DNA of 39,030 bases. Origin: a virus. The position numbers and the translations under genes were made by a program. This document shows, piece by piece, positions 22,341 to 39,030 of the stretch. The notes beneath the pieces are model-generated. The model had not been told where the DNA came from. It saw nothing but the letters and a program-made list of their open reading frames with translations, and did no database searches. The stretch spans positions 1-39,030 of IMG/VR virus record IMGVR_UViG_3300045935_000041; one strand, given 5' to 3'. The first letter of the stretch is position 1. Each line of letters opens with the position of its first letter.

Positions 22341-22565
22341 ATGAGCGATTCTTTTGCCTGGCCGCCGCGCGGCATGAGCCGCGTGGAAGCTGCTCGCTAT
22401 GTCGGCGTCGGCACGACGAAGTTCGACGAGATGATCGCCGACAAACGCATGCCGAAACCGCGCAAGATCGATGGTCGCACGGTCTGGGACCGCGTCGAGC
22501 TCGACAGCGCCTTCAGCGCCCTTCCGCATCAGGAGCGGCCGAATTTCTTCGACAAGGCCTCCTGA
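22341..22565 (+). CDS. AlpA/excisionase-like HTH protein
   Basis: 74 aa, ATG 22341 with GGAG upstream. A short winged helix-turn-helix of the AlpA/excisionase type: RGMSRVEAARYVGVGTTKFD, then EMIADKRMPKPRKIDGRTVW, and VELDSAFSALP. The last eight residues (NFFDKAS) are encoded by a 24-bp sequence that is repeated exactly at 24157. It may act as excisionase or as activator of the integrase gene. A second HTH gene lies between it and the integrase. Confidence 0.75.
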   Translation: MSDSFAWPPRGMSRVEAARYVGVGTTKFDEMIADKRMPKPRKIDGRTVWDRVELDSAFSALPHQERPNFFDKAS

Positions 22566-22593
22566 CAGGAAACCGCTATGCGCAGGTTTGTCG

Positions 22594-22953
22594 ATGACAC
22601 CGCTGTTGACACCCGAACAGGCGGCGAAGGAGCTCGGCATCGGCGTCGACACGCTGAGCGCGATGCGCAAGGCCGGCGATATTCCCTACGTCAACATCGG
22701 CCGCGGCAAAAAGCGTGAGACGCCGCGCTATGAGCTCGACGATCTGATCGCCTGGAAGGCAAAGAGGAAACAAACGGCATGTCAATTTTCATCCGCAAAA
22801 CCACCAAGGACGGGACGTACGACTACGACTTCCAGTTCAAAGGTGACCGATTTCAGGGAAATACTGGCAAGACGCGAAAGCGAGAGGCGGAAGAGATTGA
22901 AAGAGGCCTCAGGGAAGAGGCCCGCCGCACCTGGGAATCCAGAAAGACCGTAA
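22594..22953 (+). CDS. Second HTH protein, overlapping the integrase start
   Basis: 119 aa if read to its stop. The first 60 residues are a clear winged HTH of the excisionase/helix_turn 17 type: TPEQAAKELGIGVDTLSAM, RKAGDIPYVNIGRG, YELDDLIAWKAKRK. After that the frame runs 175 nt into the integrase gene, and the tail is Ser/Thr/Arg-rich in the way an out-of-frame reading looks. The native protein may once have ended near 22780. It may be the excisionase. The overlap is real in sequence, but the tail may be functionless. Confidence 0.65.
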   Translation: MTPLLTPEQAAKELGIGVDTLSAMRKAGDIPYVNIGRGKKRETPRYELDDLIAWKAKRKQTACQFSSAKPPRTGRTTTTSSSKVTDFREILARRESERRKRLKEASGKRPAAPGNPERP

Positions 22954-23951
22954 CGACACCCGACGCCTCGATGACGCTCGCGCAGGCTTGCACCCGGTTC
23001 TGGCAAGATCGAGAGGCCGACCTGGTCGACAGCGACAAACTGCTTTGGTCGCTCGGCTGGTTCGACAAGCATTTCGGAGATCTTCGCCTGGTCGATATCG
23101 GTGACAACGAGATCGCGCGCATGGTCGCGAGACGTCGCGGCGAAACCAACCTCAATCACAAGAAGACCGAAAAGGCGCTGATCTCTAAGACGACGGTGAA
23201 CCGCACGGTCACGGAACCGATGCGGCAGATTCTGCGCCGGGCGCGAAAGGTATGGAAGGTGCCGGTGCAGGACATCGAATGGCCGGAGCACTTCCTGGCC
23301 GAGCCGCAGGAACTCGTCCGAGAGGCTTCGGTGGACGAGGAAGCGGCAATCCTTGCCAACCTCAAACGCGGCTATGACGACGCGGTCTTTTTCGCGATCC
23401 GCATGGGCGCGCGGCGCGAGGAGATTCTCAATCTCGATTGGCCGCACATCGACTTCTTCAACGACCGCCTGACGCTGGACGGCAAGGGTTCCAGGAAGCG
23501 CACCGTGCCGTTTCCGGAGGATGTCCGCGATCTGCTTTGGAGCCTCAAGGATCATCACAAGGTAAAGGTCTTCACCTACGAGGCGGCCTACAATCGCAAG
23601 GCTGGCAAGCACAGCCCTGCGACGGTGCGCGGCCAGCGCTATCCGCTGACCGAGGCCGGGCTCGAGGAAGCCTTCTCGACAGCGATGAAGACTGCCGGCG
23701 TGGCGAATTTCCGATTCCATGACACGCGCCATACGGCAGCCACCCAGATGCTGCGGGCGACCGGCAACCTACGTCTCGTCCAGCGGCTGCTCGGCCATAG
23801 CAAGATCGAGACGACGATGAAGTATGCGCATGTGACCGACGACGACCTGGCGGTAGCGATGAGCGCGACGAAGTCCCACCGCGATGGACTCGTGACAAAA
23901 AGTCCCGCAAAAAGTCCCGCAAATGACAGCCGAAATGCGGCAACTGATTGA
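22779..23951 (+). CDS. int: Tyrosine integrase
   Basis: 390 aa, ATG 22779. The N-terminal arm-binding part (SIFIRKTTKDGTYDYDFQF) is followed by a core-binding helical region and the catalytic domain: R212 (GARREEIL), H314xxR317 (FHDTRH), H340 (LLGHSKIE) and Tyr349 (MKYAHV). It integrates and excises the phage by recombining attP with attB. The last codons contain two copies of AAAGTCCCGC, the same sequence as the repeats downstream, so arm-type sites reach into the gene's end. The C-terminal tail KSPAKSPANDSRN is dictated by these repeats. Confidence 0.95.
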   Translation: MSIFIRKTTKDGTYDYDFQFKGDRFQGNTGKTRKREAEEIERGLREEARRTWESRKTVTTPDASMTLAQACTRFWQDREADLVDSDKLLWSLGWFDKHFGDLRLVDIGDNEIARMVARRRGETNLNHKKTEKALISKTTVNRTVTEPMRQILRRARKVWKVPVQDIEWPEHFLAEPQELVREASVDEEAAILANLKRGYDDAVFFAIRMGARREEILNLDWPHIDFFNDRLTLDGKGSRKRTVPFPEDVRDLLWSLKDHHKVKVFTYEAAYNRKAGKHSPATVRGQRYPLTEAGLEEAFSTAMKTAGVANFRFHDTRHTAATQMLRATGNLRLVQRLLGHSKIETTMKYAHVTDDDLAVAMSATKSHRDGLVTKSPAKSPANDSRNAATD

Positions 23952-24140
23952 CGCAAAAGGATAACTCCGGAGACTTATGCCGGACCTCCTCCCCCGGCGG
24001 GTGTTGTTTTTTTCGGGCGGAAAATCCTTATATTTCAAAGGCATTTAGCCGAAACGCCCAAAAGAACAAAACGGGTATTTCGGGACAAAAACCGGCCTTT
24101 GGTGGCGAAAAGTCCCGCAAAAGTCCCGCAAAAGTCCCGC
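23899..24140. repeat. Five AAAGTCCCGC repeats, candidate integrase arm sites
   Basis: AAAGTCCCGC at 23899-23908 and 23911-23920 (12-bp step) and at 24109-24118, 24120-24129 and 24131-24140 (11-bp steps). The 3-copy group ends 16 bp before the repeated 24-mer at 24157. Clusters at helical spacing on one side of a core are typical of arm-type sites bound by a tyrosine integrase. Confidence 0.65.
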
Positions 24141-24307
24141 TCACGAAGGCCAGCGCAATTTCTTCGACAAGGCCTCCTGAAAATAATTACGCAATTTGCG
24201 CATTTTCCTCTTGCGTCCTGTGCGCAAGTTGCGTATACCTATTTCAACAGCAAGACATTGCGGCGCGGCAATTCCGCCAGCGCCCACCAGCCTTAAGGAG
24301 GCTTTTT
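23952..24307. other. Non-coding attP and control region after the integrase
   Basis: 356 bases without a supported gene. In order: a C/G-rich stretch followed by TTGTTTTTTT (24004-24013), possibly the integrase terminator; three AAAGTCCCGC arm-type repeats; the 24-bp core copy at 24157-24180; a 14-bp inverted repeat over a promoter at 24189-24239; and TAAGGAGG (24294-24301), the ribosome site for the 63-aa gene. A reading frame spans the region but its composition is that of non-coding DNA. Confidence 0.65.
24189..24239 (+). promoter_or_regulatory. Promoter with 14-bp near-perfect inverted repeat
   Basis: ACGCAATTTGCGCA (24189-24202) and TGCGCAAGTTGCGT (24221-24234) match as an inverted repeat at 13 of 14 positions, 18 bp apart. 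Between and over them lies a sigma70-like promoter: TTGCGT (24211-24216), 17-nt spacer, TATACC (24234-24239). A repressor bound to both arms would cover the promoter. Confidence 0.65.
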
Positions 24308-24531: not shown

Positions 24532-24735
24532 ATGGCCGAAACAATCACCCTCGAATTTCTTGCCGAGCAGCAGAAGCAGCTTCTGACAGAAGTGCGCAGC
24601 ATGCGCGAAGATCTGGACGTAACATCCGCCACCGTCCGCCGCATGGACGGGACTCTGCAAGGTCTTGTCAGCGAGATCCGCGCCTTGGCCGCACAACAGT
24701 CGCGGCTGCGCCTGAAGGTCGACAGCCATGATTGA
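24532..24735 (+). CDS. Small coiled-coil protein
   Basis: 67 aa, ATG 24532 with AAAGGA upstream. The protein is almost wholly an amphipathic helix (LEFLAEQQKQLLTEVRSMRE, then DGTLQGLVSEIRALAAQQSR), a likely dimer or trimer. It overlaps the HTH gene after it by 8 nt. The pair may work together, for example a coiled-coil partner of a DNA-binding protein. Not recognised. Confidence 0.65.
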   Translation: MAETITLEFLAEQQKQLLTEVRSMREDLDVTSATVRRMDGTLQGLVSEIRALAAQQSRLRLKVDSHD

Positions 24736-24922
24736 GCCCAATGATCTCGCCGCCCAGGTCAAAGCCTGGCGCGGTAAAGTCCCGGCCAGGGAGGCCGCCG
24801 ATGTCCTCGGCATCAGCCTGCGCACGCTGCAGGGTGTCGAGCAGGGCCGCGGCTTCAACTACCCGACACTGCTGCTGATCGCGCTTGAAGCCACGAAGGA
24901 CAAGATCCGTGAAGCATCCTGA
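24728..24922 (+). CDS. Small XRE-type HTH protein
   Basis: 64 aa, ATG 24728. The helix-turn-helix is clear: LAAQVKAWRGKVPAREAADV, LGISLRTLQGVEQGRG, then YPTLLLIALEATKDKI. It lacks any effector domain. It could be the protein that binds the inverted repeat at 24.2 kb. That link is a guess from proximity. Confidence 0.7.
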   Translation: MIEPNDLAAQVKAWRGKVPAREAADVLGISLRTLQGVEQGRGFNYPTLLLIALEATKDKIREAS

Positions 24923-24968: not shown

Positions 24969-25466
24969 TTGAAAACGCTTCTCGCCGCGGCTCTCACGGC
25001 CGCCTTCGCCATGCCCGCAGCGGCTCGCGATATCTCGTTCACCTTTAATGGTGAGTATCAGGGCAAGTCCTTCGCTGTCGGTAAACTGTCCAGCGACGAC
25101 TGTGGCAAGCTGCTTGTCAAGCCGCTGGTCATGATTCCGACTGGCAATGGCTCACGGCTTGCGGTGCCGGCGACCGACGTCAAGAACCGTCAGTGTGTTG
25201 CATCAGGCGAGAGCGAAACGCCAGACCAGATCCTCCGCTTCGTGAATTTCCCATTGGTCAAGGTCTATAGGCGCGATGACGGCACGTCGGTCGTTCAAGT
25301 CGGCAACGGGCCGAAGGTCGATCTCAACACGGCAGCCAGATTCTCGTCATGGGAAGATGACACCGGCTTCTACTATTTCGTCGACAATCTCATCTTCACC
25401 GACAAAAGCGGCAAGAAGACTTGCTATGAGGATGAGAGTCGCCGGTTCCCATGTGATGCCAACTGA
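24969..25466 (+). CDS. Secreted or periplasmic protein, probable lysogeny gene
   Basis: 165 aa from TTG 24969. I chose it because AAGGAA lies 7 nt upstream and a signal peptide then starts at residue 1: KTLLAAALTAAFAMPAAA, with a likely cleavage after AAA. The mature protein is beta-rich (DISFTFNGEYQGKSFAVGKL) and has four cysteines (in DDCGK, NRQCV, KTCYE and FPCDA), enough for two disulfides, which agrees with export. It lies at the end of the lysogenic arm beside no phage structural gene, the usual place for morons that alter the host surface or block superinfection. The family is not recognised. Confidence 0.75.
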   Translation: MKTLLAAALTAAFAMPAAARDISFTFNGEYQGKSFAVGKLSSDDCGKLLVKPLVMIPTGNGSRLAVPATDVKNRQCVASGESETPDQILRFVNFPLVKVYRRDDGTSVVQVGNGPKVDLNTAARFSSWEDDTGFYYFVDNLIFTDKSGKKTCYEDESRRFPCDAN

Positions 25467-38973: not shown

Positions 38974-39030
38974 TGCCGCGCTCCCGGTTCGCCATTGGCC
39001 TGCACCGGATCCCGCAGGATCTTGCCATCG
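38967..39030 (-). CDS. Collagen-like head-region protein, 3' end (joins position 1)
   Basis: The last 21 codons and stop of the gene beginning at 629. The codon split by the ends (GG from positions 2-1, C from 39030) is Gly. It is followed by DGKILRDPVQANGEPGARQW and TAG at 38969-38967. It continues the KGERG pattern at the left end without interruption. Seen alone, this piece would be missed by gene finders. Confidence 0.8.
   Translation of the reverse strand, partial: DGKILRDPVQANGEPGARQW

Follow-up and report, generated by a model that had tools for sequence, protein, structure and literature searches.

The window analyzed here is the whole 39,030-nucleotide stretch of the viral record, which looks like the circularly permuted complete genome of a temperate phage, since the open frame of a collagen-like protein reads through the join from position 39030 to position 1. 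The record has no remaining terminal repeat, and the host probably belongs to the family Rhizobiaceae. The integration region (Table 1) begins with HTH1, whose match to phrog_66 carries the annotation "excisionase and transcriptional regulator" and whose homologues were found in rhizobial phages and prophages. It is followed by HTH2, by intB (no other integrase was identified in the window), by two clusters of short repeats around the predicted attP core, and by a second copy of the HTH1 gene end. Downstream lie an operator-like region, a further small HTH gene (HTH3) and the relic of another integrase gene (intA).

Table 1. Features discussed in the text and their positions in the 39,030-nt window
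Feature	Position	Strand	Basis or remark
YqaJ exonuclease	19313-20353		
HTH1, AlpA/excisionase-like HTH gene, last before the integration module	22341-22565	+	phrog_25900 (2.2e-15); phrog_66 (2.8e-5); rhizobial homologues
24-mer AATTTCTTCGACAAGGCCTCCTGA, left copy	22542-22565	+	last 7 codons and stop of HTH1
HTH2, HTH_17 excisionase-type gene, frame overlaps intB	22594-22953	+	PF12728 (7.2e-10); phrog_66 (1.6e-9)
intB, tyrosine integrase	22779-23951	+	PF00589 (4.8e-29)
Putative P arm, AAAAGTCCCGC twice, inside the intB 3' end	23898-23920	+	similar repeats at the same place in relatives
Predicted attP core GCCGGACCTCCTCCCCCGGCGGGTGTTGTTTTTTT	23979-24013 (35 bp)	+	same sequence as the 3' terminator in ar14 (RF02344) sRNA genes
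Putative P' arm, AAAAGTCCCGC three times	24108-24140	+	repeat cluster
Stump of an HTH1 allele that was displaced; its end is the right 24-mer	24142-24180 (39 bp)	+	L098 match; allele comparison
24-mer AATTTCTTCGACAAGGCCTCCTGA, right copy	24157-24180	+	downstream of the intB stop (23951)
Operator/promoter-like region	24181-24240	+	alignment with L103, G410 and L104, where it lies directly after the HTH1 stop
HTH3, small HTH gene, between HTH1 and intA in relatives	24728-24922	+	66% to L103, 55% to L104
Relic of the intA start, VKHPDYP, 7 codons	24909-24929	+	same position as the intA starts of relatives

The 24-bp direct repeat that the initial annotation had described around the integrase is real. 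Both copies are exact, no other site was found in the record at up to 3 mismatches, and the 24-mer did not occur in any of 100 dinucleotide shuffles, so that none would be expected by chance. The copies bracket 1,615 bp (22566 to 24180, counting the right copy), and as a direct repeat on both sides of an integrase gene they have the arrangement of an attL/attR pair. The observation that the integrase module sits directly after an intact phage HTH gene also held, and relatives are without the module at that place.

By sequence comparison, each copy is the 3' end of a member of a single phage gene family, HTH1. At the right copy, the 26 nt from 24142 to 24167 (CACGAAGGCCAGCGCAATTTCTTCGA) reproduce, without a mismatch and in the same reading frame, the end of HTH1 in phage contig L098, which identifies the right copy as the final 39 bp of another HTH1 allele. 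The similar codons reported to precede the 24-mer are not a feature shared by the two copies (7 of 15 nt alike), but they proved a useful hint, as the 15-nt flank of the right copy together with the first 11 nt of its 24-mer makes up the L098 match. Translated, the stump ends in HEGQRNFFDKAS and the left copy in HQERPNFFDKAS, each followed by a stop. The C terminus of HTH1 is conserved as protein (NFFDKAS in L103, NFFDRAS in L098 and NFFDQAM in G410) and the L103 gene end shares 22 of 24 bases with the 24-mer; a near-perfect repeat can therefore arise without site-specific recombination. The final 13 nt of the stump agree with the left copy at 13/13 positions versus 8/13 with L098, which makes the stump a mosaic in its own right, its breakpoint lying close to AATTTCTTCGA. 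Simple descent from a single allele does not account fully for this pattern.

Several relatives (G410, L103/L105, L104 and L106) carry the order HTH1, operator, HTH3, intA, with the cassette absent. The closeness of G410 to the window amounts to 79% identity in TerL and 76% in HTH1. In the integrase tree, the intA of these relatives belongs to another clade than intB. HTH2, intB and the predicted attP occupy exactly the gap between HTH1 and the operator of the relatives. As the operator and HTH3 follow the stump and only VKHPDYP is found at the intA position, the module appears to have been placed between the end of HTH1 and the operator, with loss of the old integrase. The intA starts aligned to the relic are VKHPDYPGVSSF (G410), MKHPDYPGVSSF (L103) and PKHPDYPHVSSF (L104). 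The relic overlaps the end of HTH3, and its frame runs on into an unrelated open reading frame with a signal-peptide-like start that ends at 25466. Operator-like repeats (TACGCAATTTGCGCA / TGCGCAAGTTGCGTA) were seen at 24185 to 24240, 3' of the stump, and are probably bound by HTH3 or a repressor; the operators at the equivalent place in relatives differ in sequence (TTGCCAGCTTGGCAA in L103).

Within the module, the order is integrase, AAAAGTCCCGC, GCCGGACCTCCTCCC. The predicted attP core begins 28 bp past the intB stop, between two clusters of AAAAGTCCCGC, which has no further exact copies elsewhere in the genome; these clusters are the putative arm sites of the integrase. In Rhizobiaceae genomes sampled here, ar14 genes have a 3' end that agrees with the core at 35/35 positions. 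Searched for within 2 mismatches over 34 bp, the block was detected in 47 of 298 genomes versus 0 for a reversed-pattern control, and the host matches coincide with Rfam-called ar14 genes. The longest word common to the phage and the ar14 loci is 36 bp here, compared to a maximum of 19 bp for random control stretches of the phage. The Rfam ar14 model scores 19.3 bits at this block against a gathering score of 58.8 and covers a 3' fragment only, and no full ar14 gene above the gathering score was found in the window, as expected of an attP. The identity has a sharp left edge at GCCGG, the host reading ACACCC upstream, and the full host hairpin has a fold energy of -27.4 kcal/mol, while the phage half alone is without a significant fold. 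This sharp edge, together with a hairpin found only in the host, gives the block the appearance of an attP by which the 3' end of the target gene is restored, and putative arm-type repeats lie on both sides of it. The ar14 sRNAs belong to the NfeR1 family, with three hairpins bearing the anti-Shine-Dalgarno motif CCUCCUCCC (PMC10746234).

The 3' end of ar14 is thus strongly predicted as the attB of the phage, and we keep it as a prediction because no lysogen with intB beside ar14 was found in about 400 Rhizobiaceae genomes (one assembly per species) and 397 order-level genomes, two genera being also searched. A profile built from 36 integrases detected no related integrase in the neighbourhood of the ar14 genes sampled, and the block was not found in other viral contigs or phage records. 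Among other candidates, no tRNA that could serve as attP was found in the window, and the matches of the region to mir-4000 (a miRNA family) and PhrS were under the gathering threshold and were dismissed.

The pair formed by HTH2 and the integrase is a known module: Rhizobium phage RHph_I3_18 has it, and it occurs with related integrases in many prophages; in 28 prophage loci, relatives of HTH2 immediately precede the integrase. The window shares with RHph_I3_18 and the phiLM21-like phages an HTH gene that directly precedes a related tyrosine integrase and an attP core just past the integrase stop with repeats on either side; in RHph_I3_18 and L093 the core has short repeats within the 3' end of the integrase gene on one side and further repeats on the other. 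The core itself sets them apart. The attP of phiLM21 lies in tRNA-Pro GGG (PMC12429752) and tRNA-Pro is the core in RHph_I3_18, L093 and several related prophages, whereas here the core is the end of an ar14 sRNA and no tRNA-Pro or tRNA-Met fragment was found in the window. IntB also stands at some distance, being 42% identical to the RHph_I3_18 integrase, up to 50% to prophage integrases and at most 50% to the sampled members of this group, and it grouped with no particular sampled clade in the tree. No donor phage carrying HTH1, HTH2 and intB together was found. sRNA genes are known prophage sites in enterobacteria and make up 17% of such sites in S. enterica, as cited in PMC5502288. In both cases attB, which is predicted here, lies at the 3' end of a bacterial sRNA gene, but the gene matched by the window is of the ar14/NfeR1 family in Rhizobiaceae. 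We found no earlier report of ar14 as attB in the literature searched.

Taken together, an exchange of lysogeny modules that left a scar of HTH1, with intB using 23979-24013 as its attP, is in our view the best explanation (probability of about 0.82). The recipient would have had an HTH1 allele similar to that of L098, ending in CAAGGCCTCCTGA, within the ancestral layout HTH1, operator, HTH3, intA. The incoming segment would have contained HTH2 (a probable excisionase), intB and its attP, probably with HTH1 as well, and would have entered at the HTH1 gene; the arrival of HTH1 with the module is suggested by the difference between the two alleles. The last 39 bp of the old allele would have stayed behind as a scar, so the 24-bp repeat would represent the homology between two HTH1 3' ends and not a product of intB, and intA would later have decayed to its seven-codon relic. 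The route was probably the phage's own short-homology recombination. Temperate phages swap lysogeny modules by relaxed recombination (PMC3945230), and the window resembles those cases in a mosaic swap next to a conserved gene, the phage having genes for recombination (YqaJ here), but differs in having its right boundary marked by a short remnant of the displaced allele. The new integrase would then recombine at the copy of the ar14 (NfeR1-family) 3' hairpin/terminator, and integration would restore the 3' end of the sRNA from the phage copy.

The initial annotation had proposed that the 24-mers are the attL and attR of an excisable 1.6-kb element composed of HTH2 and the integrase, inserted site specifically at the 3' end of HTH1. 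The exact repeats do bracket the module precisely, relatives without the cassette exist, and the left flank of the right copy comes from another HTH1 allele, as would happen with an attP that captures a gene end. However, the predicted attP of intB is intact at the ar14 block, a core that an intB event at HTH1 would split, and the longest word common to the 24-mer and this block is just 6 bp. Both AAAAGTCCCGC clusters are located to the left of the right 24-mer, flanking the ar14 block, with none on its far side and no arm repeats to the right of either copy, so the 24-mer is not a core between the arm sites of the integrase. Neither does it recur beside HTH1 in 26 related HTH1-bearing loci. 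With up to 3 mismatches allowed, it is absent from 395 Rhizobiaceae genomes (0/395), and no viral contig has it as an exact match, so it was found at no attB or prophage border elsewhere. We therefore regard this reading as quite unlikely; recombination between the 24-mers that would drop the integrase is possible in principle, with nothing in its support.

The other proposal, integration of the phage into the 3' end of a host homologue of HTH1 with the right 24-mer as attP, could draw on homologues in rhizobial chromosomes and plasmids, some of them apparently outside intact prophages, but no such homologue was found to end in the 24-mer. The same absence from the 395 genomes, the wrong geometry of the arms and an attP predicted at 23979-24013 make it very improbable. 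In essence, the 24-mer is absent from prophage borders and the attP maps elsewhere, the outcome that the initial annotation had itself named as telling against attachment sites. It might also be imagined that a different recombinase, now lost, or an earlier nested prophage duplicated the 3' end of HTH1 and that the intB module came separately. The mosaic look of the stump, with its breakpoint in the common AATTTCTTCGA, would fit such a history, but neither such a recombinase nor a nested element was observed, and near-identity of the ends is already expected from the conservation of the protein, so we consider it unlikely. Satellites embedded in helper phages have integrases that target prophage genes (PMC10111431) and are superficially similar in having an integrase module inside a phage genome; here, in contrast, the attP is mismatched to the phage gene and satellite genes are absent.

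Under module exchange, an integrase can be flanked by a perfect direct repeat that is the scar of such an event rather than a pair of att sites, and the tempting misreading is corrected here. One step of integrase replacement would have been caught in a phage family with both the stump of the displaced gene and the relic of the lost integrase still readable, and the predicted attachment site would fall in the ar14/NfeR1 sRNAs, a multicopy family in nitrogen-fixing bacteria and related ones. More tentatively, the phage may use the anti-Shine-Dalgarno hairpin/terminator of this family as attB and supply a new 3' end, in which case lysogeny would edit the sRNA wherever the host ar14 stem differs; we hold this as a possible but doubtful extension. 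If true, the edited sRNA belongs to a family regulating nitrogen metabolism and nodulation.

Some additional HTH1 loci were observed. Unannotated HTH1-like frames are present in Mesorhizobium and Rhizobium plasmids (L022:6001-6210 and L023:6001-6192) and are possibly prophage remnants. The provirus IMGVR 2936996657 has two HTH1 homologues (L008:41-289 and L030:4061-4318), one near its integrase and the other an orphan at the other edge of the record, which ends in HQEEKNYFDQVFGN.
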